Shown in pieces: positions 7,192-38,605 of a DNA stretch of 38,605 nt. Origin of the DNA: a virus; IMG/VR virus record IMGVR_UViG_3300008117_000134, positions 1 to 38,605 of that record; one strand, given 5' to 3'. The translations under genes were made by a program, and so were the position numbers. The first letter of the stretch is position 1, and the number at the start of each line of letters is the position of its first letter. A model generated the notes under the pieces. The model did no database searches. It was not told the origin of the DNA and was given only the letters and a program-made list of their open reading frames with translations.

Positions 7192-7199
7192 TATTTATC
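7192..7199 (-). promoter_or_regulatory. Candidate internal late promoter GATAAATA that favours start 7166
   Basis: A minus-strand NATAAATA match overlapping the stop codon of the giant gene. A transcript from here would begin near 7185, downstream of the ATGs at 7185-7190 and upstream of AGAG and the ATG at 7166. This supports the shorter start of the next gene. Confidence 0.45.
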
Positions 7200-10100
7200 G
7201 AGGCAAACTGGTGGTCTTCTCCGCTATGAAACGGGCAATAGCTGTTGAATTTTCTAAAAGCGTTGTACCGCTAGATGCCGTAGTTTCTCCTCTGTCATAC
7301 CAAATTCTTCCTGTTCTTTTGATAATTGTGATTCTGGTTCCTGCTACTATGGGCTCAGTAAGTCTAATATAAGCCGTAATGCCATCTACTGCAAATTCTG
7401 CTTCTAACGTTTCATCTGCCGAGGGACTGTAAGATCCGTTATCTTCAACCCAAATATCTATCGGATCTTTTCGCAATCTACGGCCGCCTGCGAACACTTC
7501 GAGTTGATCACAGGCGCCATAAGTGCTGGGAATAGTATCTCTATACCACACATTTCTCGTGCCTTGTACAGGCACAATATCTAACGGTCCTATTAATAAT
7601 GAACTACCGTCGCTGACGAAATCTGTTCTATTTTGTGTTTCATTATAAGGTAGTATTTCTTCGTATCCTACATCAACCACAACAGTTCCTTCAGCATAAG
7701 TTTCTGCAATAGCTGTGCCTTGTGATCCTCTGCGTAGTTGTGATAATACATTACCAATTTTACTCATGTATTCAATACGTTCTCCATTAACACTTATAAC
7801 TCCTGGAACATTTCTCGATACGATTGGATCCGTTAACTGTGAGCTATCAGTAACTGTAATAGTAGTATCAAAGTAGTTGAGAGCACTGGTTAGATATACT
7901 TCTCCTCTGGCAAATCTATTATAGTGATAGACATTTAACATATCTTTGTGTATCTCAAAGGCGCTAGGTGATCTATAAATGTCTGATGAAAACAATACTA
8001 TCTTGATCTGATCACTAAAAGTAGAGTCTGTCCCTAGATAAACCACATTTCGAGGAATGCTCACATAGTAATCTTGATCCTGAGTAAGTCGTATTCCATT
8101 TTTATATACCCAAACATAACTAGCAGATATAGGAGCTCGGGGTAATTGATACTGTACCTTGCCGCCAACGATTTCATCAGATATCATATCCAATGAAGCA
8201 TATTCGCTGAACCATGTAACATTTATTTCTACATTATCTGTTTCGTTGGTAGTGATCATCTCGACACTGGGATCTATAACGAGATTAGATTCAACTATGG
8301 AATATTCTGCCCTTCGATTATTTTCGATCTTTATATCGTCGCCCGCTGTAAGTACAGCGGGCGATACCGTTAATTCTTTTGTAGCACCGTTGTAGATATA
8401 ATCTGTAATGAAAGTTTTTAACTGATTGTTTACATATACTCTTATATTACTTGGAAGAATAGCTCCTGAAACTTCCAACGGATCTTGACCTAGAATAAAC
8501 GTATTATTGGTTCCATTATATTCCACAGAAATTGTATCTGCGCCTCGAAGGTATTGGCCGCCTACTTCTACCAACATTGAATTAGGTGCTGATCCTCTAG
8601 ATAGTTCTGTAAATCCTTCAAGGTCAAAACTTCGTGTGCTGCCTTCAAAATATACCGTTTGAGTATTGACTTGCACTACAGCCACACCCGAGCTATCTAC
8701 ATCAGGACTGGCTTCAAGACTGATTATTTTTATCACCGCATATGCTGGAGGAATATCACCAAATTCTACCAAAGTTTTTCCCGGTACATCGATAATTCCT
8801 GTGCTGTTTTTGAACCCGACATCTACAAACTCACCATCGACTGTAACAAATATCAATGCTGTGTCTTCGTAATTAGCGTCTGTGAGAAATAAATTAGTGG
8901 CTCCATCAGCTACAAACAAATCTGAAGATAATATACCTATTCCTCCGATGCCTATCGAAATAATTTCTATTACCGAATCGCTGATTGGAGCTGTATTAAA
9001 TTCTACCGTATTCTGTAATAGGTCTAAAACATAATCTGTGCCAAGGTGTTTTTTAACTTTATTAACATATACAATTACCGATTTATTTTCAATGACACGT
9101 TGTCCGATGTCAAAGTTAGTGATAATCCCATTACCCTTGATAATTTTAGATTGCAGCGCCGCTGATCCTGTAGGTGTTGATTGAAACACTTTAATAGACA
9201 CGCTGTCCATGACCTGACCGGGAACATTTTCTTCTGGGGCCGGTACATGGTCAGGTTCCGTGAATCCGCCGCCGGTGATCGCTATTTCTTCTGCTGTGGT
9301 GCCTTTGGCTGTGACATACACACTGTCTATAGCCGATAAAGTACCACCACTGAGTTTTGTGTCTAGTAGATTATCATCAGTGATAGTAACAGATCCGTCG
9401 CTTTCTATAGGACGGAAAATCAACGTGTCACCGTCTTGGGTCGAAATATAATTACCAATTTCAATCACCCTATTGACACCGTTACCTATGAATGTAGGCA
9501 TTTCTGCATTGGGATTTACGCTGGTGGATGAATCTACTTGATCGGAATAAGCAGGATCGTCGATTCTTCTGGTCAGCGTTTCACCTGCAGGTTTAATATA
9601 GATGTTTATCTCCTGTCCCACTGCAGGAGTATAAGGTAAAGTTACTGTGTTAGTACTTCCGTCACAGACAACGTAATAATCGCTGTTAGTTTCAACACTG
9701 TCCCAGTTGTCAGTGAACCACGGCAGTGCATCCCAGCCGCCAGTAACGTCAAATGTCGTTCCTTGTATTTGAACTCCGCCAAAATCTATCCCTGTCATTA
9801 ATTGATTAAGTTCTTTGCCAATCATACCGCTGACAGGATTATAAAATCTATCTATTCTGTTTACTGCAGATAATAATTCAATATTTTTTTCATAATTAAC
9901 TACAATGAAATCACCCGACAACGGTGCGATATTGAATATAATTTTTCCTCTCAGTAACAAATAACTATCAGCAAATGAATAATAGAGATTGAGTGTATAT
10001 TCACTACTTAACACTAGTTGGTTATTTTTTAATATAGTAATTTTAGTTTTGTCTCTAGTAGGAGCATATCCCAGTTCAAACACTGCTGTAGTTCCTGTTG

Positions 10101-13100
10101 CCGTAAATGTTTGATTTTGTGTGTATGATTGATAGTCGCCTGTTTTACTCACACGATCAAATTTCACTGTGAGGTCAAAAGTTCTAACTTTAGTATCGCC
10201 TAGAACTGCTGTGGCCTTGGCCTGTGTACCATCATTAGAATTTCCTCCGACTAAAGTTACTGTGGGTCTTTGTGTGTAACCGCTGCCTGCGGTCAAAATC
10301 CTAATTCCAGATACTCTACCGTTGGATATATAGGCCTGAGCCGTGGCTCCTGATCCGTTGCCTTCTATGATCACTCTGGGAACTGTGGTATATGTTGTTC
10401 CACTGTTGTATAACAGAATATCAGTCACTCCATATCCATTGTTATCTGTCCACCATTTCCAGGGATACTGTGTCAATTCTGTGCGTTCGAAAGTTATAGG
10501 AACTACTTTACCGTCTGGTACTGAATAATTAGGAGACAGATCGAAATCTGCGATAGCTGACTGATAGGGATCTGGAGTGTCGTAACGACTCACATACTCT
10601 CTTACCGTGGTTCTAAACGGTTTGACTTCATCTATGTATTGTTGATAACTTTCTAGATTATCATTTTTGTAATTTAATTTTTGTTCAAAACTTCCTACTG
10701 AATGTGTAGCGTTTAGGAAACTTGTTTTAAAAACCCAATCTACATACTGTTGTTCAGATAATACATATCGTACACTAGAGAAAAAGAGTTTGTTCCATTC
10801 AACAGCGTAATCAGTTCTAAAAATGTCATTTTTCACAGCTTGTAAAATATTCCGTAATTCAATTGAATTAGAAATATCATAGGTGGTATTATCAAAACTC
10901 TGTGTGTTATCGAATCCTATTCCTGTTATGGTAGTATCATACAATGAAGTTTTGAACTGAATTGTGCCGTTTTCTCTCGCTACTAACTTAAATCTATCTG
11001 AAAAAGTTGCGCCTATGTCATTGATTTTTTCAAAAATTGCCCATCCTCCGGCACCATATTCCTTGACTCTTATTAGTGCACCTAGTGAGATTTGATATTG
11101 TTGTTCTTGAAAAACACTTAGAATTTCTAGACTTATCTGAGAATCTTTATCGTATCCTGTGAGATACCAATCCACTGTGTTCCAATACTTAGTGGTATCA
11201 TAGGCCTGAGATTGGCTACGGAAAAATACCTTTCGAACATCGTCCCAGGCATAGATACTCCAAAAATTGTCTATAGTAGAATCATTTATCACTAAAACTG
11301 AAAAGTTCCGTACATTAATCGACAAGGTTCTATATCTTTTACCTCTACTCTGTACTGTAGCAGTGACTATTCTTCCTTGGTTATCTAGAACTACTGAAAC
11401 TTTTGCACCCGTACCGTCGCCTACTATCTCTACTGTTGGAACAACTCTATATCCGAATCCCGGTTCAACAATATCAATTGTATCAAGTTCCCCATCTACT
11501 AAATTAGCTTGTAAGACAGCCTGTTTAGTTCGTACTGTACCTACCGTCTGCAAATCAATCTCTGTATCTACTTCAACATCGTACAGATTCAATATATCTA
11601 CTGGCACAGTATCTTTGGTATTTAAATTTGTAAAATCTATAAGATCAGAGAACGGCTGAGTAGTCAATACATTATTAATGTTTGTTATAGCTAATTTTAG
11701 TGCTGTCAATCTATCAACAAACATACTTTGTCGAGGTCGAAAACTAAGACCATATTTTTGTTTAGCAGGCAATTTTGTATCTGGAATTCTATTGCCCTGC
11801 AGATCAGTACCTACTAGACTATCAATCCACTTATTTTCCAATTGCGCAGTGGGGACACTGTCAGCAACAGATTCTGTTAGTAATTGATATTCACTATGTA
11901 TTGGTCTTTGAGATTCTAAATCATTTCTATACTTGATATTAATTAATGCGGTGTCTGATGACATCACCGATTTTAAATTGTATAAAACAAATTTATCAGC
12001 CGCTATTAATGCCATAAATGCAGTGCCGGTACCTACAGGATTAGCAATAATTCCAGCTACTTCTGCAGCTGACCGTGTTCTACCTGGCATATTAGCAGGT
12101 ACCACTGCTTTGTTTTCCACCCAATAAAAGTACATAGTTTCTTGTACCTGCCCTGTGATCGGATTGAAAGTTTGTTTTACGCTATATGCATCGTTATTAG
12201 GATATAGAGGTTGTCCGCTAATACCTACTGATAAGCCTTCGTTGGTGTCTGCCACTGCTGCCCACTCATTGGGTAATAATACACTTTGTACCCATTCATA
12301 TACGCCAATATCGCTGCCCTCGACCTGTTGGTTCCAGTTGCCTGTTCTAAAAGCAGCATCACCTTGTTCTGCATAAATCCATTTTGCAGCGGCAGTATTC
12401 CACCATAATTTTCCAACATTAAATTCATACCAGGCTATAGCAGGATCCGTAATCACTCGATCATTGCCTATGGTGTAAACTGCTGGATCGTATGGAGTCT
12501 TGAATTTTATTTCTTGTTCTGCTGAGTTAAGTATTTTACCTTTGGCAGCATCTACGTAATCAAGATCTTGTATTTTAATGTTCTGCACATTGTCGTATAG
12601 TTCTATGCTTCTGATTTTTCTTATGTCTATCACAGGTTGCTGACTGCTAAGGATATTCCAGGAACTTTGTTCGGAATCTTTTTTGAACAATCTGGCATTG
12701 CCTATGTAAGGTCCTTCAAAAGCCACTACTCCTACATCATGTAGCACCGGTAATCTGTAGTATGGGGAGCCCACAGCCACATAAGATCCCACACAGTCCA
12801 CGCTAGAGCCGAATGCTTCATCGGGAGAAAAGACTTCCTGCAGTTTTTCAGTAATAAAAAATATTTGATCTTTCTTATCAAATATATAAACTCCGCCGGT
12901 GAAACCTTGGGCAGTGCTGAATCTAGTTGATCTTAGATCAAATGTGGTATCCTGTAGAATGTCAAAGGTGATAGGAATATTGTTTGAAGCATTCTTTGCA
13001 CCCACCGCAATTTTTGCTGCATCGGGACTTACCGAAACTCCGAAGCCAAAATACTCATTGGGATATGTCTCGAAACTTTCTAGACGCTGTTTTACTCTAT

Positions 13101-16100
13101 ACTCAGTGGTAGCATTATCTAATTCCAATACATACACGCTGCCTTGGTCCTGATAGTTGATATCTGATTTAGGACTAGAAACAACCAAAGTGTTACCGGT
13201 AAGATCCATGTCCATGGCAAAGCCAAACTGATCCCCAGTACTGATCACCAGTCCGGAATCTATATCTGAGAATGAACTGATAGATGCTGCATTGATCATT
13301 TGTTTTAGTTCATAAACATCGCCTGCTGTCCTAGCATAAACAAATACCTTGCCACTAGACTGGGTGGTGCTGTCTCCTACTACCTGCCAGTTGGCGCTAT
13401 TTGACGGATCTTCGTTATAGCTTCTATAAGTAGAATCTGGTCCAAGAAATGCATCACCTAGGCGGTAGTATTGATACGAATCGCCAGGAGCTGTTGGATC
13501 TTTAAATCTCACAACTTCACCTTCTACATATTCTACATCACCTCTCCACAAACCTCGATAATTAGTAAAATATTGACCGTCTGCTTCTGGAGCACCTATT
13601 ACCAGTATGCTGCCGTCTCTATTCATGGCCATGCTGGAACCAAATTTATCACCCTGTTTGACCAATTCAGCCATTTGTGTGTCATTCAGTAGACCCGTAA
13701 TAGCGAATTCAAGTGTGCTGCCGTCATCCTCTACAGATAATGTGGTTGGCAAAGAACAATTGGTACTAATGTCGCTGACCTTTAGCCAGCCTTGAGATTC
13801 AATAGTAATTGTGCTACCGTCTGAAGTGCTATCTTCTAAATTCATCCATAGATTTCCCCTCACAGCTTCTGTTATGGGGTCTTGCGCAGCTTGCCATACG
13901 ATTTCCCCCGCTTTGTAAGATTCTTGGAAATCATATACGCCTTTGTACATGGGATTTTCTAGATGTCTCCATGCTGTACCATCGAACTTGAACAGATATA
14001 CGCGGCCGGTGTTATTATAGGCGCCTGTAGCAGATACTGCCATATAATACGATCTGCCGGTTACGGATACAGTTATTTCACTGCCAAATTTTTCGTTGTC
14101 TGCAGGTCTCGGACTAACGAAAGTTGTGGTGTTTGAAAATCTTCCGTTAGCATAGGTGTAAATTGCTATCATGCCCTGTTGATACAACCCTGTAGTAACT
14201 CCAGATTCAAGTGCAGGTATGATCGTGGCTAATTCCCAGTCATCTGTATTCACTGCTAGTTCGCTGCTACCGTCGCCTACCACTGTATTGGCATTTTTAG
14301 CTCGATAAAGTCTGCCACCGTATATTACAATTTCATCTGGCTGATATAATTGGTCTGTTCCCCATGGTCCTCGGAATGCGCTGGCTACACCACTGGCTTC
14401 ATCAGCACCTATAATCAGCATCTTACCATCTGGGCTCAAAGACATGGCATTGCCGAAAGATCCCAGTGCAGTGGAAAAGAATCCGGTAGGAGGTGAAACT
14501 ATTTGTTTCAGTACTAATCCTTCAGAACTTTCAGCATACACAGTCACTATGCCAGAGCCAGGAATGCTGACTATCAACTGTTTATTCACTGTGTCGTATA
14601 TTACTTTTTTACCCGCATTCACGGGGCTAGTAGTAGCATAATCTGTGATAGCATTAGCTGTGTATTGTTTTTGTTTTTCTATAACTTCCCATCGATCGTC
14701 GCCATTGTTATCTATGAATAGTCTAGAGGAATTAAGTAAAAGTGCAGACGTGCCTCGATTCAGAATCTGATAATCATCAAATCTGCTATTAGTTAGTATG
14801 ATTGGATTGACTATTGTGCTTTCATCTAATTCTGGGTCTCGAATATCAGCGTCAACTTCTATACTAATAGTGGTATTAGTAACTGAAACAATTTTGAAAA
14901 AACCCTGTAGGTTTATGATATTCCTAAAGCCCACATAAGTTTCAACTAAAAATGCGTGTGGTCGATTAAAAGTCAATACCACTAAGGTATCATCGAGTCT
15001 TTCCAGACCGGTCACAAACAGCATGTCGGATTGATTAGCTCTCAATACCGTCCATGAATCTTTATTGAATGTGATCCATATATGATCGTTTTCTCTAACT
15101 GTGGCGATGTTCAACGTGGTTAATGCTGCTTGAGTAGCTAATACATGTTCATATTGATCTTCATAGACATAACCTGCTGTTGATGTTGGTTCTGTTTCAA
15201 AAGAAGTTGGAGTGATATTTGTCGTATATGGAGTAGGACTAATGGTAAAATCATTAGCTGTGATTCTATAATTTTGATCAGTGACTGTGGTTGTTTGTGA
15301 AGACTGGAGTAGAAACAACTGGGGATTTAACTGAAGTTTATTTTTTTCTATTTGTATTTCTATTTCTCTAACCTGGTCAATACCTCCTATACGGCCTACC
15401 AAGAAAGCCCACTCTTCGTTAAGGGTCAAACTGTCGGATCCAGATCGACTGAGTTTGCCAAATATTTTTGTTATAGCATTTGCCGACCCTTTTTCGCGTA
15501 TAAATCCCTGATACAGTTGGAATTGGCTCACTGGATCTTCGGCTAGATTGTTTAAATAATCTCTCTGTTGATACCCAATAGTGTGTCTTGCCAGTGCTCT
15601 CTGACTTTGATTTACTCCCTCCGATGATGTTTCAAAATAATCTCCGAATTGTTTAATCTTATAATCAAAATTGGGTAGTAATTGTTTTTGTGGGGTAGAA
15701 TCTAATTTGGTCCAGAAAGCGTCGTTAAAGATTTCTGTCCCTAACTGATTTATTAGACTGGTCCAGTTATAACTTTTATATGAAACTATATCACCTAATC
15801 TATAATCTGTGAAGGGCTGCCAAATTTGTATATTAACATTATCAAATATAAATCCTGGACTCGTATAATCTCCATCCCAGTCCACTGTGCGGAATCCCTG
15901 TGCCTTGATTCGACCCTGCCTATATCCTGTGGTTTTATCATAGATAATGTCGTTGAACACTGTGCGATCATCAAATACCGTGACATGTTCTTTGAGCACG
16001 TAATTTAATTTCAAGAAAAATATTCCGTCGGTGGTATTGGTTGTTTCGACCGTGATATTTTGGAAACTACGATTGACATTTAAAAATCTTGGTTCTAAAG

Positions 16101-19100
16101 GCTTTCCATCACCTTTTAGTACCTGGTAATCATAGAACCCGTCCAGTATGTTATCTGCCACCCCCACAGGCACCACCACATCTACTTTTTGTGCCACAGG
16201 ACTTATAGCGATCAACGAACCTTTTTCCCAATTGTGCTTGGTCCAAAACATGAATTCTTTGGCGCTGCTGAGCCAGTCTTGGCTGACCTGATTTTCAGGA
16301 TCGTATCTGTCAAACCTAAATCCTAGATTTTTTAGATAGCTTTCGTAGCCCAATAGGAAATCTACTACCTGTTGTACGGTAGTAAACAGTGTGCCGTAGC
16401 TAATACGTTTTACTGATAATGTGTTAAATGTGCGGCGGCGTTGTGCTTCCACTGCGCCTACTTTAGGAATGTCGCTGAGTTTTTGCCATACTGTGGTATC
16501 GAAGGAATCTCCACTGTTGTGTGTGCGCAGTGCTCTATAGAAATCGTTAGAATATCTGACTATCGTACCATTGTTGTAATTTTTATCTGTGGTCCAATCT
16601 AAGAATGTTTCGCTTACTCCTCCTACAGATATCACCGGATCCCTCTGGCTAACCAATGCCTGATGATATTCAAAATAAGGATGTATGTCGTCGTACCCCG
16701 TAGCGATCCAGCCTCCTTCGGTCTTTTCAAATATCACTCCACTGATAGCCACCGTGGCCACTGGAGCGCCTACATTGAAGATAATATCATAATTTTCCGC
16801 AGGTACATATATACTGCTGGTGGTAGCTGAGGGATTTTTAGAATCTAGCAAGAATTTTTGCTGTTGTTGATCTACAAATCCGCTCATCCTAAAACTTAAT
16901 GCAACATCTAACCTGTTTATTTTTTCTAAAATGCTGTCCTGTGGAATTCCTCGAGATTTCACATAGGCCACAATATACTTCAATAAACCTATGTGTGAAT
17001 CTGATAAAGTGTCCGGAGCAATTTCATCAAGTGTGCTGAACAGAGATGTTGCGTTATTCACTGTCTGGCCCAACAGATTTGTAGTGGTCCTCGACCGATC
17101 AAAGTTATCTGTGATAAATTCAAAGGGTTTCATCAGACACATGGCCATGATCACTGCGAATGGCCATTCTGAACTGGATCTCCAGGCATATTCTACTGGG
17201 CTTATGTCGCCTAACACGAACGGTCCTCGATTGTTGATCAGTGAAAAATCCTGTGCTAGACTACTGTCTAACGGGCTTATTAACACACCATCGCTATCTA
17301 CAGGAATATGATTTATCAATCCCGGACGTTTGTATCTGTCATGGCGACCGGCTCTGCTTCCTTGTCTAATATGGCCATTCTCTAGATCTTCCCAGAGCAA
17401 TAGGTTGTTACGTGTGTATGGGGCGGCACCGTACTGTGTTTGCCACCAAGCAGGTTCTTGCGAAAATCCCAGCATCTCCCACGGACAGCGGTGTGGGCGG
17501 TCTGTGTCATAGAACCATTTATAAACTCCTCTCCAATAACCAGGCAAAGACTGTGTCTTGGTCGGATCTGACATTCTAGAATAGGTATAGGTAAAACTAT
17601 TCTCACTATCAAAATACGTGTTCAGGGTATAATTGATATTGGTGTTCTGTATCCATTTTAAAAATTCTTGATTTATAATATTATCTAATTGCGGTTTGGT
17701 ATAAAGTCCAACACCATAGTAACCGCCTAGAATAGAATCAATGTCAAAGATTTCAGGATTGTATTCCTGCTTGATGTTGTTGTAGATGCGATACTCTAGT
17801 TCTAGTATCAGGTCATCTCTAAAATCACCATAAGCGGCGGTGATACTGCCATCGTGCCCCTGTATAACTAGACGAGGTTGCTGATAAGTGTCATCCATGA
17901 ACTTCATAGGAGTGTATTTTTTATACAGCCCCATACTGGTAGGAGTCGGCGGGACATAACTGGTAGCTGTAGAAATATATTCACGTATTTCCACTATGTC
18001 GTTTTCTTCGAGAGTCACAGTGAGCTGCACAAAACCAAATGTTGAATTAAACACGTAATCTCTGGCATTCAACAATTGACTATCATTGAGATACACATAC
18101 ACTGCTCGTTTGCTGAGAGTGTTTAGGTCAAACTTTTCACTAAGTGCGAATGTTGTTATTCCTATGTCTTCTACTCTATATGTGATAGCTGTATAGGCAC
18201 CTGCTCCTATCATGTCACTGTCTGCAAAAGGACTTGCTGCTGTTTTGTTTTTTGTCAGACTAATAATAATATCGTCGACAAAGTTTGGAACACTGCCATT
18301 GTAGGCTATTTCTAATGCTCTAGAGGCAAAATTATTTCGGAAGTCTGTATAGGCTTTTTTCGCGTATTGTATTGACTTAACCACATTGTGAGTCTTGTCA
18401 CACAACATCATTATAGCCAATGGTGCGATTCCTGAATGTTTAAGGAATCGTTTAGCGTGTTTTTCGTATCCAGCAATATCTCTTAGATTGCTTACTCCAG
18501 GGATAGTTCCGCTGAGTGTGGAATCAAATTCCACTGCTGAAATCACGTGATCTACTGCTTGTCCTAGTGTGAAGGATGTCAGTTGTGCATTTAACGGATT
18601 TTTTTCTAGTCCTGCAGGTATTTCGTAATAGCCCTGATCTGGTTCCAGATCCGTGATAATTTTCAGAGTCACTGTGTCTTTGGCAGATAGTGTGTAAGGG
18701 AACACAAATGTATTCGCAGATCTTGTGTATGATCCTGTGTATTTTACTCCATTGATATAAACATTGATAATCGGATCAGTGGATAACAAGGACCAATCTA
18801 TGGTGTTGAATATCAGCGTATCCGTATCGCTAACTACCAGTTGGCTGTCTATTATAGGTTGTATATATTCTGTACCTGCCAGTAACCAGCCGTTGTCAAA
18901 AACTGAGTTTGGATTAAATTTAAAGTATCCGGTTGATATTTTCACATTCTTAGGTATGCGTAACTCTGTGTATTCAGCAACATCTGTATCCCAGTCAAAA
19001 TTGAATTCTATATCTCCCACATTGTCAATATTCAGATAACTGAGACGGAATCCCAATTCAGTATCTATTCTACCTGAACCTGGTTTATAACTGACAATTT

Positions 19101-20973
19101 TTGTACCGGCAAACGTACTGGTGGTGTATTTTTCACTGTCTCCGAAACTAACACCAGCCGAATCAAATGCATCGAACAACGGAGCCTGATTTACTGTGGT
19201 CTTTGTTTGACTAGGCACCCAGTCAGTACCGTTGAAGTGAAACATTTTACCGCCATTCTTATTACCTCTACGTACCAATACTCCCTGATCCAATACGCTG
19301 TCACTGTCCTCGGTTTCTACAAGATGTATCTGAGTACTGTTGATGTGCCTGATAAATGTTACTTCATATATTTTGTTGTTTGTTGATCTATCAGTATCAG
19401 CTGTGGCTAATATTCTAGCGCCATCAAATAAGAATTCCCCATCAATGTTGTAACCTGTGCTGCCTTCGATGCGAGATAGTATATCAGTGGTGTAATCGTC
19501 GAGATAATCTACAGTCTGTTTGGCTACTGCACCGTGATTGAATAGTTGCAGATTAGCTGAAAATTCTATAATAGGACGTTTGGCTCTAGTGGCTTCGTCT
19601 GCGGGAAAATCTGTGCCGCGCAAGGCATGAGCAGTTTCTAACACATTTCTGTGAAACCAACGATTGTATCGTGACCAAGGATTTGAGTCTATGCTGTCTC
19701 TAGCTATGGTCACATAGTCTTTGAAAGTGGGATAGGCTGTGGCATCATCGAAAGGTTCAGTATCGAATCCTGCGTTGTCAAACAACACTTCCGGTACTGT
19801 AGCGGTGAGTACTGGCACTATTAGATCAGAAAATTTTGTCAATGTTATTGCTTTTCCAACTCCCTCGACTAACCATGTTTCTGAAGAATATTTTCCTGGG
19901 ACAACGGTACCCTGAAATTCAACAATCATTCCATTAGTAAATGTAATACTGTTGCTACTGACATATTCACTCTTGCCAATGATGTCTTTTTCTACATTTA
20001 TATAGGTATTAGATTCAATATCAGCTATGACGAATCTACCAAAGGCATCGGGGGTGATCAATCCCTGATAATACAATATATCTGGAGCATCATAGGGCAC
20101 AGTGAAAGTCACCGTGCCATTTTCAATACCGTTGTTAATGACTCCTTTGTTGTATTCCAGTGCTGCACCGGATGCTGCTGGTTCGACATATTCCCAATCT
20201 TCGCTATCTAAACTAATAGAACTACCGTCTAATGGGTTAATGTCCCTACGAGCTCTATATAATTTCGAATCTGATACTGCTAGATCTCCTGCACTGTAAC
20301 CATAGCTGGGTTTGAATAGTAAACTTCCCGTGTCATAATTTGTGCGGATATTAAATCCTTCACCTGGCACATTTACTTTGAATTTGTATGACTGTCCTCT
20401 ATACAATGTTAGCGTAGGATTATTAGTGTAAGCATCAGGAGTGAATACAAAACTATTACCAGTTGTACCCAACACTACCCTATACGTACTGCTTACTGTG
20501 GCACTTTGGCCATACACAGCAACACTAGGTGGGCCATTTGGTACCCAATAATATTCTCGATAATTAACAAACTTATCCCAGGCTATGGGCGGATTCCAAG
20601 TATAGTGTTCTTGGCTAGTGATTTTGTCATCGCGGTCATCTGTGTTGCCGAAGAATTTTAACTGATTTTTAAAATCGATATAGTCATAAAAATTTTCAAT
20701 CTTATCATGATTTCGATTTATCACACCTGGTTCTAATTGATATGCACTTCGTAATGTTGCGTCGGTGTCTAGATACAGATCATTACCGTTGTAGGTTTTT
20801 CCAAATCTGCGACCAACATACCCTGTAATTTTATCTAATAATCCCGGCTGCACAAGTGGATCTACCACCCCTGCAAGAAATTTATCGTTGGCTTCAGTCT
20901 GAAAAACTTTGGGCAGAAGTTCTACAGCTTTTCTTATAGGTAACTTGCTGAAAGGAAAAAATTTATCTGACAT
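7195..20973 (-). CDS. Giant modular baseplate-region structural protein (4592 aa)
   Basis: A single open frame of 13.8 kb directly after gp6, where T4 carries genes 7-10. The N-terminus (MSDKFFPFSKLPIRKAVELL) and the following GRRFGKTYNGNDLY region look like the very large structural proteins of marine T4-like phages. Visible modules are: six chitin/carbohydrate-binding (CBM5/12)-like segments near residues 216-263, 1458-1500, 1714-1757, 2208-2249, 2346-2398 and 2479-2533; FG-GAP-type propeller repeats at ~2170, 2291, 2441, 2578, 2636 and 2717; two glycine-rich GxGY..P.V modules at ~3158-3211 and 3514-3579; six YVNG-type beta modules, the last four near the C-terminus; and a VNGERIEYM segment at ~4386-4419. 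No protease or lysozyme motif was recognised. It is probably a baseplate-peripheral scaffold or adhesin, and may replace gp7/gp8/gp10. The function is inferred. Confidence 0.85.
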   Translation of the reverse strand: MSDKFFPFSKLPIRKAVELLPKVFQTEANDKFLAGVVDPLVQPGLLDKITGYVGRRFGKTYNGNDLYLDTDATLRSAYQLEPGVINRNHDKIENFYDYIDFKNQLKFFGNTDDRDDKITSQEHYTWNPPIAWDKFVNYREYYWVPNGPPSVAVYGQSATVSSTYRVVLGTTGNSFVFTPDAYTNNPTLTLYRGQSYKFKVNVPGEGFNIRTNYDTGSLLFKPSYGYSAGDLAVSDSKLYRARRDINPLDGSSISLDSEDWEYVEPAASGAALEYNKGVINNGIENGTVTFTVPYDAPDILYYQGLITPDAFGRFVIADIESNTYINVEKDIIGKSEYVSSNSITFTNGMIVEFQGTVVPGKYSSETWLVEGVGKAITLTKFSDLIVPVLTATVPEVLFDNAGFDTEPFDDATAYPTFKDYVTIARDSIDSNPWSRYNRWFHRNVLETAHALRGTDFPADEATRAKRPIIEFSANLQLFNHGAVAKQTVDYLDDYTTDILSRIEGSTGYNIDGEFLFDGARILATADTDRSTNNKIYEVTFIRHINSTQIHLVETEDSDSVLDQGVLVRRGNKNGGKMFHFNGTDWVPSQTKTTVNQAPLFDAFDSAGVSFGDSEKYTTSTFAGTKIVSYKPGSGRIDTELGFRLSYLNIDNVGDIEFNFDWDTDVAEYTELRIPKNVKISTGYFKFNPNSVFDNGWLLAGTEYIQPIIDSQLVVSDTDTLIFNTIDWSLLSTDPIINVYINGVKYTGSYTRSANTFVFPYTLSAKDTVTLKIITDLEPDQGYYEIPAGLEKNPLNAQLTSFTLGQAVDHVISAVEFDSTLSGTIPGVSNLRDIAGYEKHAKRFLKHSGIAPLAIMMLCDKTHNVVKSIQYAKKAYTDFRNNFASRALEIAYNGSVPNFVDDIIISLTKNKTAASPFADSDMIGAGAYTAITYRVEDIGITTFALSEKFDLNTLSKRAVYVYLNDSQLLNARDYVFNSTFGFVQLTVTLEENDIVEIREYISTATSYVPPTPTSMGLYKKYTPMKFMDDTYQQPRLVIQGHDGSITAAYGDFRDDLILELEYRIYNNIKQEYNPEIFDIDSILGGYYGVGLYTKPQLDNIINQEFLKWIQNTNINYTLNTYFDSENSFTYTYSRMSDPTKTQSLPGYWRGVYKWFYDTDRPHRCPWEMLGFSQEPAWWQTQYGAAPYTRNNLLLWEDLENGHIRQGSRAGRHDRYKRPGLINHIPVDSDGVLISPLDSSLAQDFSLINNRGPFVLGDISPVEYAWRSSSEWPFAVIMAMCLMKPFEFITDNFDRSRTTTNLLGQTVNNATSLFSTLDEIAPDTLSDSHIGLLKYIVAYVKSRGIPQDSILEKINRLDVALSFRMSGFVDQQQQKFLLDSKNPSATTSSIYVPAENYDIIFNVGAPVATVAISGVIFEKTEGGWIATGYDDIHPYFEYHQALVSQRDPVISVGGVSETFLDWTTDKNYNNGTIVRYSNDFYRALRTHNSGDSFDTTVWQKLSDIPKVGAVEAQRRRTFNTLSVKRISYGTLFTTVQQVVDFLLGYESYLKNLGFRFDRYDPENQVSQDWLSSAKEFMFWTKHNWEKGSLIAISPVAQKVDVVVPVGVADNILDGFYDYQVLKGDGKPLEPRFLNVNRSFQNITVETTNTTDGIFFLKLNYVLKEHVTVFDDRTVFNDIIYDKTTGYRQGRIKAQGFRTVDWDGDYTSPGFIFDNVNIQIWQPFTDYRLGDIVSYKSYNWTSLINQLGTEIFNDAFWTKLDSTPQKQLLPNFDYKIKQFGDYFETSSEGVNQSQRALARHTIGYQQRDYLNNLAEDPVSQFQLYQGFIREKGSANAITKIFGKLSRSGSDSLTLNEEWAFLVGRIGGIDQVREIEIQIEKNKLQLNPQLFLLQSSQTTTVTDQNYRITANDFTISPTPYTTNITPTSFETEPTSTAGYVYEDQYEHVLATQAALTTLNIATVRENDHIWITFNKDSWTVLRANQSDMLFVTGLERLDDTLVVLTFNRPHAFLVETYVGFRNIINLQGFFKIVSVTNTTISIEVDADIRDPELDESTIVNPIILTNSRFDDYQILNRGTSALLLNSSRLFIDNNGDDRWEVIEKQKQYTANAITDYATTSPVNAGKKVIYDTVNKQLIVSIPGSGIVTVYAESSEGLVLKQIVSPPTGFFSTALGSFGNAMSLSPDGKMLIIGADEASGVASAFRGPWGTDQLYQPDEIVIYGGRLYRAKNANTVVGDGSSELAVNTDDWELATIIPALESGVTTGLYQQGMIAIYTYANGRFSNTTTFVSPRPADNEKFGSEITVSVTGRSYYMAVSATGAYNNTGRVYLFKFDGTAWRHLENPMYKGVYDFQESYKAGEIVWQAAQDPITEAVRGNLWMNLEDSTSDGSTITIESQGWLKVSDISTNCSLPTTLSVEDDGSTLEFAITGLLNDTQMAELVKQGDKFGSSMAMNRDGSILVIGAPEADGQYFTNYRGLWRGDVEYVEGEVVRFKDPTAPGDSYQYYRLGDAFLGPDSTYRSYNEDPSNSANWQVVGDSTTQSSGKVFVYARTAGDVYELKQMINAASISSFSDIDSGLVISTGDQFGFAMDMDLTGNTLVVSSPKSDINYQDQGSVYVLELDNATTEYRVKQRLESFETYPNEYFGFGVSVSPDAAKIAVGAKNASNNIPITFDILQDTTFDLRSTRFSTAQGFTGGVYIFDKKDQIFFITEKLQEVFSPDEAFGSSVDCVGSYVAVGSPYYRLPVLHDVGVVAFEGPYIGNARLFKKDSEQSSWNILSSQQPVIDIRKIRSIELYDNVQNIKIQDLDYVDAAKGKILNSAEQEIKFKTPYDPAVYTIGNDRVITDPAIAWYEFNVGKLWWNTAAAKWIYAEQGDAAFRTGNWNQQVEGSDIGVYEWVQSVLLPNEWAAVADTNEGLSVGISGQPLYPNNDAYSVKQTFNPITGQVQETMYFYWVENKAVVPANMPGRTRSAAEVAGIIANPVGTGTAFMALIAADKFVLYNLKSVMSSDTALINIKYRNDLESQRPIHSEYQLLTESVADSVPTAQLENKWIDSLVGTDLQGNRIPDTKLPAKQKYGLSFRPRQSMFVDRLTALKLAITNINNVLTTQPFSDLIDFTNLNTKDTVPVDILNLYDVEVDTEIDLQTVGTVRTKQAVLQANLVDGELDTIDIVEPGFGYRVVPTVEIVGDGTGAKVSVVLDNQGRIVTATVQSRGKRYRTLSINVRNFSVLVINDSTIDNFWSIYAWDDVRKVFFRSQSQAYDTTKYWNTVDWYLTGYDKDSQISLEILSVFQEQQYQISLGALIRVKEYGAGGWAIFEKINDIGATFSDRFKLVARENGTIQFKTSLYDTTITGIGFDNTQSFDNTTYDISNSIELRNILQAVKNDIFRTDYAVEWNKLFFSSVRYVLSEQQYVDWVFKTSFLNATHSVGSFEQKLNYKNDNLESYQQYIDEVKPFRTTVREYVSRYDTPDPYQSAIADFDLSPNYSVPDGKVVPITFERTELTQYPWKWWTDNNGYGVTDILLYNSGTTYTTVPRVIIEGNGSGATAQAYISNGRVSGIRILTAGSGYTQRPTVTLVGGNSNDGTQAKATAVLGDTKVRTFDLTVKFDRVSKTGDYQSYTQNQTFTATGTTAVFELGYAPTRDKTKITILKNNQLVLSSEYTLNLYYSFADSYLLLRGKIIFNIAPLSGDFIVVNYEKNIELLSAVNRIDRFYNPVSGMIGKELNQLMTGIDFGGVQIQGTTFDVTGGWDALPWFTDNWDSVETNSDYYVVCDGSTNTVTLPYTPAVGQEINIYIKPAGETLTRRIDDPAYSDQVDSSTSVNPNAEMPTFIGNGVNRVIEIGNYISTQDGDTLIFRPIESDGSVTITDDNLLDTKLSGGTLSAIDSVYVTAKGTTAEEIAITGGGFTEPDHVPAPEENVPGQVMDSVSIKVFQSTPTGSAALQSKIIKGNGIITNFDIGQRVIENKSVIVYVNKVKKHLGTDYVLDLLQNTVEFNTAPISDSVIEIISIGIGGIGILSSDLFVADGATNLFLTDANYEDTALIFVTVDGEFVDVGFKNSTGIIDVPGKTLVEFGDIPPAYAVIKIISLEASPDVDSSGVAVVQVNTQTVYFEGSTRSFDLEGFTELSRGSAPNSMLVEVGGQYLRGADTISVEYNGTNNTFILGQDPLEVSGAILPSNIRVYVNNQLKTFITDYIYNGATKELTVSPAVLTAGDDIKIENNRRAEYSIVESNLVIDPSVEMITTNETDNVEINVTWFSEYASLDMISDEIVGGKVQYQLPRAPISASYVWVYKNGIRLTQDQDYYVSIPRNVVYLGTDSTFSDQIKIVLFSSDIYRSPSAFEIHKDMLNVYHYNRFARGEVYLTSALNYFDTTITVTDSSQLTDPIVSRNVPGVISVNGERIEYMSKIGNVLSQLRRGSQGTAIAETYAEGTVVVDVGYEEILPYNETQNRTDFVSDGSSLLIGPLDIVPVQGTRNVWYRDTIPSTYGACDQLEVFAGGRRLRKDPIDIWVEDNGSYSPSADETLEAEFAVDGITAYIRLTEPIVAGTRITIIKRTGRIWYDRGETTASSGTTLLENSTAIARFIAEKTTSLPR

Positions 20974-35611: not shown

Positions 35612-36663
35612 ATGAGAATAACAGAAATATTAACTGAATCGCAACTAGAACAGCTAGATGAAGGACCTATAGGATCAACTCTAGGTGCTGTGGGTCGAGG
35701 CATAGGCAAAGCCGTAGGCGGCGTGGCTAAAGGTGTCGGAGCTGTGGCAGGCGGAGTAGTTGGTGCTGGTCGAGCACTAAAGAAAGGATATCAAACTGGA
35801 AAAGCTATTGTAGGAGATGATCCAGATCCCAACGCAGGAGCTCCTGGATACACTGCACCAGCGGCAGGAGGAGGAGCGACGGCACCCGCAACGGTGGCAC
35901 CTGCAGCAGCACCAGCGACAGCAGCAGCACCTGCAGTGGGAGGCTCTGCTCCTCCCACCCCACAAGAGATTAACGCTGCTGGTCCTAAAGGTACAGTGGC
36001 AGCTAAGCCTCAGACAGGACAAGCTGCAACAGCTCTAGCTAAAACAGACGCTGTCACAGACAAACAAACAGCTACTAAAGCTGGGGAAACTGTGTACGCA
36101 CAGGTCAAGGCAAATATTAATAAACTAGACAAACAAGGTAAGACACGCATACTGAATCTCCTACAGAAAAGCATTCAACAGTCACCTGCTAAACCCGCAG
36201 CTAAACCTGCTGCAGGTGGCAGTTGGCAGGTGGCAAACCTCCAAATACTATGGCTAATGCACCAGTAAGTGCTTCAAATACAGCGAAACCTGGCAATCCA
36301 AATGCTGCCTTCTCAGACAAACCTTTAGAAGTTCCGGGTAAACGTGCCCGAAGCACTAACCCTAAGGCAAGTGGAACATCAGCAGGACAGGGTGCGTTTG
36401 CTAATGTAGCTCAACAGTTGGCAAAACCCGCAGGCAGAGCGCAAGGTGGCGGCAAGGTGGCGGGTGCGCTGAGTCAAACGGCTAACGCAGTGAAAAAACG
36501 TGCGGCTAGGCTAGCCGGCAGACAACCAGCCGCAGTCACTGCCAGTCTAGTGCATTACGGTAAGAGTCTAAATGAAGTTCTAGCTCAGAGATTAGAAATA
36601 CACAAGCGCAGAATGTTTGAATCTTCATTGACCAACGGCACCGCCAGCGTATTCGTAAAATGA
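35612..36663 (+). pseudogene. Ala/Pro/Lys-rich candidate internal head protein, frame split by a 14-nt duplication
   Basis: Two overlapping open frames, 35612-36268 (218 aa) and 36223-36663 (146 aa from a TTG), read as one gene when a 14-nt tandem duplication at 36212-36235 is removed. The remaining 1038 nt give exactly 346 codons (345 aa), joining PAKPAAKPAAGG to KPPNTMANAP. Without this the first frame ends in an atypical SWQVANLQILWLMHQ tail. The N-terminus MRITEILTES resembles T4 capsid-targeting sequences, with L-T-E/S and L-D-E/G matching the gp21 protease site. A glycine-rich hydrophobic segment (residues ~20-55) and long Ala/Pro/Lys low-complexity regions follow. AGGGA precedes the ATG by 8 nt. 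It could be a real mutation, an assembly error or two separate genes. Confidence 0.6.
36212..36235 (+). repeat. 14-nt-period tandem repeat that shifts the frame
   Basis: GCAGGTGGCA occurs at 36212-36221 and again at 36226-36235, separated by GTTG, so the period is 14 nt. Fourteen is not a multiple of three, and deleting one period rejoins the two flanking reading frames. Such a short repeat is a natural substrate for slipped-strand gain or loss. Confidence 0.85.
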
Positions 36664-37109
36664 AAATTTTTGAAATAGTTTCTGAGGCAGAAGGTGATTT
36701 TGCAAAATATCGACAGTTAGGACAAAATCCTTTAAACCTGGTAGGGCATCTAGCCAAAGAAGTTCCTGATTCTGCTGTATCAGCAGTTGATAAAACTAGT
36801 AAGTTAGGAAAAAAACTTCTAGGTATTGACTATGATGAGCCCGCAGCAAAAACTTCTAGTAAATCAACAGCATCGACCGCCAAGAAATCTGTGTCAACTG
36901 CCGCAGTTGATGTAACCAAAACTAAAGATATTCTAGATAGGTTACTTAAAGGCGAAGCTGTATCACGCGACGACACACAGCATCTTATGCGATTGAAAAA
37001 TCAAATCGATGATCCACAATTACAAAGGGTATTTGATAAAGTACAGCGCGGCAGCGCACTTGAATTCACTGATCAACGCAGCCTACAGATATATAGAAAT
37101 TCACTTTAG
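36660..37109 (+). CDS. Candidate internal/virion protein with CTS-like N-terminus (149 aa)
   Basis: It begins MKIFEIVSEAEG, resembling the T4 internal-protein targeting peptide MKTYQEFIAEA, with V-S-E/A at the expected cleavage point. Residues ~60-85 are Ser/Thr/Lys/Ala-rich (AAKTSSKSTASTAKKSVSTA). The C-terminal ~60 residues are a predicted helical domain (TKTKDILDRLLKGEAVSRDD, DPQLQRVFDKVQRGS). The ATG overlaps the stop of the upstream gene (ATGA), with no separate Shine-Dalgarno. The stop overlaps the convergent gp51-like gene by 4 nt, leaving no room for an intergenic terminator. The family is not recognised; the head-packaging role is inferred from the N-terminus only. Confidence 0.7.
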   Translation: MKIFEIVSEAEGDFAKYRQLGQNPLNLVGHLAKEVPDSAVSAVDKTSKLGKKLLGIDYDEPAAKTSSKSTASTAKKSVSTAAVDVTKTKDILDRLLKGEAVSRDDTQHLMRLKNQIDDPQLQRVFDKVQRGSALEFTDQRSLQIYRNSL

Positions 37110-37321
37110 AAAAACGGCAGTCCTGATTTTTTAGTGGTCTCTAGATTTTCTGCAACAATTTCACCAATGATTGCTCTCTCTTCCCAACTCATGTGTATGA
37201 CTTCAGTGTAACTGAGTCCTCGCATATACCAACACAGTTTCATGCAATCTTTTTTCAGTGCCTTGCCTTCTTTGTCTAGTAATTCACTTTCTCGTAAAAT
37301 CTCTGGCAAGGACAGGGTCAA
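37106..37321 (-). CDS. 51: gp51-like hub/tail assembly protein (71 aa if independently started; possibly made by frameshift)
   Basis: A short helical protein: LRESELLDKEGKALKKDCMK, then LCWYMRGLSYTEVIHMSWEE, then ERAIIGEIVAENLETTKKSG and LPFF. The W-Y-RG-S-Y-E--MS-EE--I---I-EN---T-K-GLP pattern is typical of the small proteins annotated as gp51 or baseplate hub assembly factors next to gp26 in marine T4-like phages. The only start at the junction is TTG (37321) overlapping the gp26 stop (TTGA). No Shine-Dalgarno is visible in the preceding bases. The -1 frame is open from a slippery AAATTTT in gp26 into this gene, so it may be made mainly as a gp26-gp51 fusion of about 354 aa. Confidence 0.75.
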   Translation of the reverse strand: MTLSLPEILRESELLDKEGKALKKDCMKLCWYMRGLSYTEVIHMSWEERAIIGEIVAENLETTKKSGLPFF

Positions 37322-37342
37322 GATTTTACGGCGAAAAAATTT
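37293..37342 (-). promoter_or_regulatory. Candidate programmed -1 frameshift signal in gp26/gp51
   Basis: Read on the minus strand, the zero frame is TCA AAT TTT TTC. The heptamer A-AAT-TTT (37342-37336) fits X-XXY-YYZ in the correct phase. A 5-nt spacer (TTCGC) is followed by a perfect 10-bp stem, CGTAAAATCT (37330-37321) with AGATTTTACG (37302-37293), around an 18-nt loop that contains most of the gp26 stop/gp51 TTG region. After a -1 slip the frame reads F-R-R-K-I then enters gp51 without a stop. The phase, spacing and stem are seen directly; function is inferred. Confidence 0.6.
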
Positions 37343-38238: not shown

Positions 38239-38605
38239 ATGGCAGGTGTATTCATTAACATCCCCGGAGTAGGCAATGTAGAAGCCCAAGGAGCAGCTTC
38301 TGAAGCTACACTGCGAGAACTGCTGGCTGCTATGCGTGGTGGCGGTGGTGGAAGGGGTGGAGCAGGTGGTGTTATTATTGGTGGTGGAGCTGGCGGAGGC
38401 GGTGGCGGCGGCGGGCTGTTAGGATCTGCAGCTGGTATGATAGGCAAATCATTTAATAAACTAGGAATAGTTGCAGGCTTTGCCACCGGAGTCGTAGGAA
38501 AATTAGCTGGCGGTGCAATGAAAGCCACAGCCGCTACTATTGGAATGGGCGAAGCTATAACCGGTGCAGTACAAGCGTTATCACAGCTGGATGGTAGTGC
38601 TAGCG
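38239..38605 (+). CDS. Glycine-rich tail protein, possibly tape-measure-like, partial (N-terminal 122 aa)
   Basis: A plus-strand frame open to the window edge. It begins MAGVFINIPGVGNVEAQGAA, then SEATLRELLAAM, followed by a ~25-residue almost pure glycine run (residues ~34-58). Hydrophobic Ala/Gly helices follow (LGIVAGFATGVVGKLAGGAM, TAATIGMGEAITGAVQAL). AGGA lies about 12 nt before the ATG. Long helical glycine/alanine-rich tail proteins next to gp26/gp51 suggest a tape measure or gp29-type hub component. Only the start is visible, so this is an inference from position and composition. Confidence 0.6.
   Translation, partial: MAGVFINIPGVGNVEAQGAASEATLRELLAAMRGGGGGRGGAGGVIIGGGAGGGGGGGGLLGSAAGMIGKSFNKLGIVAGFATGVVGKLAGGAMKATAATIGMGEAITGAVQALSQLDGSAS

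Follow-up and report, generated by a model that had tools for sequence, protein, structure and literature searches.

A putative tail assembly chaperone locus with a conserved -1 slippery site in an IMG/VR virus and its gp26/gp51-bearing relatives

The gp26-like gene and its 3' end

The analysed stretch of DNA (IMG/VR record IMGVR_UViG_3300008117_000134, positions 1 to 38,605; hereafter the window) carries on its minus strand a gp26-like gene, the product of which matches the gp26/gp51 family PF12322 with 64.8 bits, over the Pfam cut-off of 24.5 (Table 1). Read on the minus strand, the 3' end of this gene is ATG GAT CAA TCA AAT TTT TTC GCC GTA AAA TCT TGA. A sequence-only reading of this DNA had pointed to an in-phase slippery heptamer A_AAT_TTT, a 5-nt spacer, a stem of 10 perfect base pairs and an open -1 frame leading to a fusion of about 354 aa, and each of these elements was found in the sequence as described. 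What it had missed is that the heptamer it named overlaps a second one, T_TTT_TTC, which is also in phase and is the site conserved family-wide. Slippage at either heptamer would give the identical junction peptide NFFRRKIL and the identical 354-aa product (279 + 75); either could serve in the window.

The stem (CGTAAAATCT/AGATTTTACG) encloses an 18-nt loop; its spacer measures 5 nt if counted from A_AAT_TTT, but 2 nt if counted from T_TTT_TTC. The -1 frame stays open until a stop codon at 37108-37106. If gp51 were a separate gene, the earliest start available to it in this frame would be the TTG at 37321. As had also been stated, no SD-like sequence precedes this codon in the window; a second TTG and an ATG lie further inside the ORF.

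Table 1. Features of the putative chaperone locus and its neighbour in the window
Feature	Position	Strand	Basis
gp26-like gene, predicted chaperone short form, 283 aa	37318..38169	-	PF12322 T4_baseplate E 1.2e-17; PHROG 150 baseplate hub E 4.5e-21
Slippery heptamer A_AAT_TTT	37336..37342	-	in phase; kept in 66/79 of the window's wider clade
Slippery heptamer T_TTT_TTC, family-wide site, overlapping A_AAT_TTT	37333..37339	-	in phase
gp26 stop codon TGA, zero-frame termination	37318..37320	-	sequence
-1-frame extension, 75 codons, predicted long-form C-terminal domain, position of cyanophage gp51	37109..37333	-	-1-frame purifying selection
TTG, earliest start available to a separate gp51	37319..37321	-	not conserved
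Stem 5' arm	37321..37330	-	covariation over 60 distinct sequences
Stem 3' arm	37293..37302	-	covariation over 60 distinct sequences
Divergent neighbour of gp26, cut by the window end	38239..38604	+	N-terminus near-identical to a 960-aa gene in L004

Taken alone, the slippery sequence, the stem and the open -1 frame are mildly unusual, and the case is made by comparison. In-phase X_XXY_YYZ heptamers (Y=A/T) occur 52 times in 12,124 window codons, and in the 18 larger ORFs of the window the overlapping pair described here is the only occurrence at most 75 nt from a stop codon. Perfect inverted repeats of at least 10 bp with loops of up to 25 nt were found at 3 positions (two places) in the window, compared with 0-6 in simulated sequences, thus the stem by itself is not significant; the weight of heptamer and stem comes from their conservation in relatives. 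The second perfect inverted repeat of this kind (at least 10 bp, short loop) lies at 8339-8340, inside a giant ORF.

Conservation of the slippery site

The close relatives comprised 27 IMG/VR loci with 64-99% identity to the window gp26, and AAT TTT TTC was kept in all readable ones. A wider alignment search yielded 80 loci down to 47% identity, a few of which repeat earlier contigs. T_TTT_TTC was in phase in 79/79 readable members of this set, 66 of them with A_AAT_TTT as well; the latter heptamer is absent from most lineages beyond this wider clade. All 14 named jumbo phages that were read (Phosso, Atu_ph07, PA5oct, RaK2, XaC1, BF, Vibrio 2.275, PBECO4, Munch, XacN1, CBB, SCTP-2, GAP32 and CM1) have an in-phase T_TTT_TTC or T_TTT_TTT together with an open -1 frame. 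An in-phase site and an open -1 frame were also found in S-PM2, P-SSM2, HTVC008M, KVP40, phiM12 and PhiW-14, in phiM9, where the last codon of the site is TTG, and in 89/90 readable IMG/VR cyanophage/SAR11 loci.

Of 136 readable loci, which span 24 clusters at 60% gp26 identity, 135 have T_TTT_TTN (TTTTTTC/T/G) in phase at the 3' end of gp26; these divergent groups include jumbo phages, cyanophages, a SAR11 phage, KVP40 and rhizobial phages. The residue before the site differs between clusters (N, S, D, H, A, R, Y), but its codon has T as the third base throughout. Given the codon use of each cluster, the joint probability that synonymous choice alone would produce this is about 10^-15.6, a value that assumes independent clusters and is weakened by their shared ancestry. 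An accidental co-occurrence of heptamer and stem, or a sequencing error, would agree with the finding that the stem alone is within chance range, but conservation over about 200 loci and 24 divergent clusters refutes this explanation, to which we give practically no credence. One of the loci (L145) has its gp26 frame broken at 162 codons, probably by a sequence error or as a pseudogene.

Stem and other potential stimulators

In the window clade, the two arms of the stem pair in 84.5% of cells, compared with 25-50% when the stem is slid, and 48 double-sided changes were counted, whereas shuffles gave 12.6 on average and 20 at most. The distance from T_TTT_TTC to the stem is 2-3 nt in this clade, a short spacer that counts against the frameshift reading. 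In a set of 48 loci, folding is on average strongest immediately behind the heptamer (mean energy -10.2 vs about -6 kcal/mol), and the hairpins formed there differ in sequence among lineages.

In cyanophages, the heptamer is preceded by an SD-like element whose end lies about 8 nt upstream; the Glu codon there is GAG in 40/52 cases vs 393/1454 elsewhere (P 3e-13). In S-PM2, about 24 nt separate this element from the gp51 ATG, too great a distance for initiation. The dnaX-type layout consists of an SD, a slippery site and a stem, and the cyanophage arrangement matches it. An upstream SD was also considered as a stimulator for the window clade and rejected, the interaction being weak (-2.8 vs -6.6 kcal/mol in cyanophages). 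Likewise rejected was +1 frameshifting, as in most loci the +1 frame closes a short way past the gp26 stop.

The same fusion could in principle be made by the polymerase instead of the ribosome, if transcription slipped on the T6 run, which is the most conserved element of the locus and which in the SAR11 phage HTVC008M reaches 8 Ts counting the stop codon. In most loci, however, the run has only 6 Ts, which is short for polymerase slippage, and both the covarying stem and the SD-like element of cyanophages belong to the stimulators of ribosomal frameshifting; we regard a transcriptional origin of the fusion as very improbable.

The -1-frame extension and its start codons

In all complete wider relatives the extension is 75-76 codons long, and in the close relatives the -1 frame ends 212 nt past the gp26 stop. 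The sequence-only reading had proposed to look for -1-frame stops between the heptamer and gp51, and none was found in any readable relative. After the slip site, pN/pS is 0.13-0.50 in the -1 frame vs 0.92-1.9 in the other frames. This purifying selection acts from the slip site on, also in loci that lack any ATG, GTG or TTG in the first 30 post-slip codons, which is the case in 22/79 wider relatives. In PA5oct, no start codon was found over the whole -1 ORF.

The window TTG is shared by the near-twin L002 only and occurs in 0/79 further relatives; the gp26 stop of the close relatives other than L002 is TAA, and therefore the TTG is absent there. Heptamer, spacing and stem are thus kept in the relatives and the TTG is not, as the earlier reading had anticipated. 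Nor is a strong SD with an ATG conserved for gp51, another feature it had suggested examining: the positions of ATG, GTG or TTG vary among relatives or such codons are missing, and the ATGA overlap of Phosso and Atu_ph07 comes without an SD.

These data bear on the possibility that two separate proteins are made, gp51 arising when ribosomes that have terminated on gp26 reinitiate at a start codon close to its stop (in the window, the TTG). The records do annotate a separate gp51, and coupled re-initiation is possible at the TTGA of the window, at the ATGA of Phosso and Atu_ph07, and in many cyanophages, where an ATG lies at +5 or a GTG at -1. However, these starts are not conserved and in PA5oct are missing altogether, while the slip site is invariant and selection on the -1 frame sets in at that site; moreover, T4 gp51 is a fused protein (see below). 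Reinitiation seems very unlikely to us for these reasons, and the -1 extension is probably translated only after slippage.

The gp51 extension has been left unannotated in the records of PA5oct (L031, after 3849) and RaK2 (L032, 3853-4050), and the present comparison reveals both ORFs. The gp51 annotations of HTVC008M and several others start internally, with conserved residues cut off.

Relationship to T4 gp26 and gp51

Among eight T4-like genomes searched, two PF12322 genes were found in T4 only. T4 gp26 matches the family at 8.8e-64, and residues 1-201 of T4 gp51 match it over the full model (3.9e-52). Beyond this part, T4 gp51 has about 48 residues that share homology with the -1 extension of cyanophages (hhalign 96.9%, E 1.7e-10, compared with E 0.1-0.8 for shuffled controls). 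Judged by these matches, T4 gp51 is a gp26 paralogue with a C-terminal domain fused in frame, i.e. a fused long form. The earlier reading repeated the description of T4 gp26 and gp51 as two separate proteins; T4 has two genes, one of which encodes the long form with a gp26-like part of its own. No slippery heptamer was found near the 3' end of Tevenvirinae (T4-type) gp26 genes, which end in GAG TTC TTT or similar; this would be expected where a second gene provides the long form. The pair that T4 makes from two genes is, it appears, obtained by its relatives from a single gene by means of a slip. One T4-type gp51 (L162) is broken at 120 codons, probably by a sequence error or as a pseudogene.

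The -1 domain of the window itself matches T4 gp51 weakly (hhalign E 0.002-0.025), and the matches of the window/jumbo extension to T4 or cyanophage gp51 are also weak (E 0.0008-0.04), in the same register and position. PHROG 634, the gp51 C-terminal domain, is matched by S-PM2 and HTVC008M, and the window ORF gave no hit to it. On such profile matches, the identity as gp51 can be called secure for the cyanophages and weak for the window. Cyanophage and marine vibriophage gp51 have been reported without the first ~200 residues of T4 gp51 (PMC3037559), and production of the long form by slippage from a single gene would account for their absence in cyanophages.

AlphaFold2 models of the window gp26 (pLDDT 78) and of a T4-type gp51 (pLDDT 87) had no significant PDB match in Foldseek, the known chaperone fold of the HK97 gp13 type included, and VIA-align of the T4-type gp51 model returned no match with a Z as high as 5.

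Proposed mechanism and comparison with known systems

Based on these observations, we consider it highly probable that gp26 and the downstream -1 ORF constitute one tail assembly chaperone locus, which gives rise to a short and a long form by -1 ribosomal frameshifting. Most ribosomes would terminate at the gp26 TGA and release the 283-aa short form. A minority would slip back one base at A_AAT_TTT/T_TTT_TTC, probably helped by the stem-loop just downstream, and produce the 354-aa long form with an extra, predicted helical domain at its C-terminus. The tape measure protein is probably coated by both forms, which would also bring in the subunits of the tail tube, presumably in a fixed ratio, like lambda gpG/gpGT. 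T4 would obtain the same pair from two genes, gp26 as the short form and gp51, with its gp26-like part and the same kind of C-terminal domain, as the long one.

A short form and a -1 frameshifted long form, as proposed here, are known from lambda G/GT and likewise from P2 E/E' and HK97 gp13/14 (Xu, Hendrix and Duda 2004, as cited in PMC5009743). The parallel with G/GT had already been drawn from the window sequence; it is supported by our results and strengthened by T4 gp51 being a fused long form. The locus may, as in lambda, lie beside tail genes: the HTVC008M annotation places the tail tube before gp26 and the tape measure after it, and in KVP40 the tail tube also precedes gp26. In contrast to lambda, the tape-measure-like neighbour in the window is divergent, and the slip site is T_TTT_TTC instead of G_GGA_AAG; the likeness considered here is one of layout. 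In T4, the short gp26 and the long gp51 with its extra C-terminal domain, both PF12322 proteins, are encoded by two divergent genes and there is no slip site, whereas the window and most T4-like groups tested have one gene and a slip.

G-T frameshifting was described in 2016 as widely conserved 'except T4' (PMC5009743). According to papers that cite the study of Vladimirov, Gautam and Davidson (2022), T4-like phages have two chaperone genes, one short and the other long and fused (PMC10885494), poly-T -1 signals occur in T4-like chaperone genes (PMC12846349), and the T4 hub assembly chaperones gp26 and gp51 were identified as tail assembly chaperones. A GTTTTT motif, a conserved poly-T -1 site ending the short chaperone gene, is also given for the chaperone locus of Vandenendeviridae/Andersonviridae (PMC12846349), which are different phage families from that of the window and are compared here by layout. 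Since PMC10885494 and PMC12846349 cite the 2022 study for T4-like chaperone genes, the principle of frameshifting in these genes must, as far as the citing papers convey it, be treated as known. What we add is the window clade, and perhaps also the jumbo phages and the data on stimulators; the window clade and the RaK2, PBECO4 and PA5oct jumbo phages are thereby placed among the phages with predicted tail-chaperone frameshifting.

We are inclined to think that single-gene -1 decoding with T_TTT_TTC is ancestral to the whole T4 supergroup, including the jumbo phages, and that the two-gene state of T4 is derived. The invariant slip site would then have been kept as one stimulator gave way to another from lineage to lineage, with a covarying stem in the window clade and unrelated hairpins and an SD-like element in the cyanophages.

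Neighbouring genes

The 960-aa gene of L004, to which the truncated neighbour of gp26 is near-identical at the N-terminus, looks by eye like a tape measure protein; family searches gave no match, and no family model confirms this putative assignment. At its 3' end, the putative chaperone locus overlaps a convergent plus-strand ORF (36660-37109) tail to tail by 4 bases (37106-37109). Elsewhere in the window, a 4592-aa ORF (7195-20973, minus strand) matches the giant virion structural family PHROG 10938 and also, over short stretches, families of baseplate wedge and head closure proteins. The S-PM2 gene directly after gp51 (L060, 1857-3001) has an ADP-ribosyltransferase-like domain, with PF01129 and PF03496 just over the cut-off.
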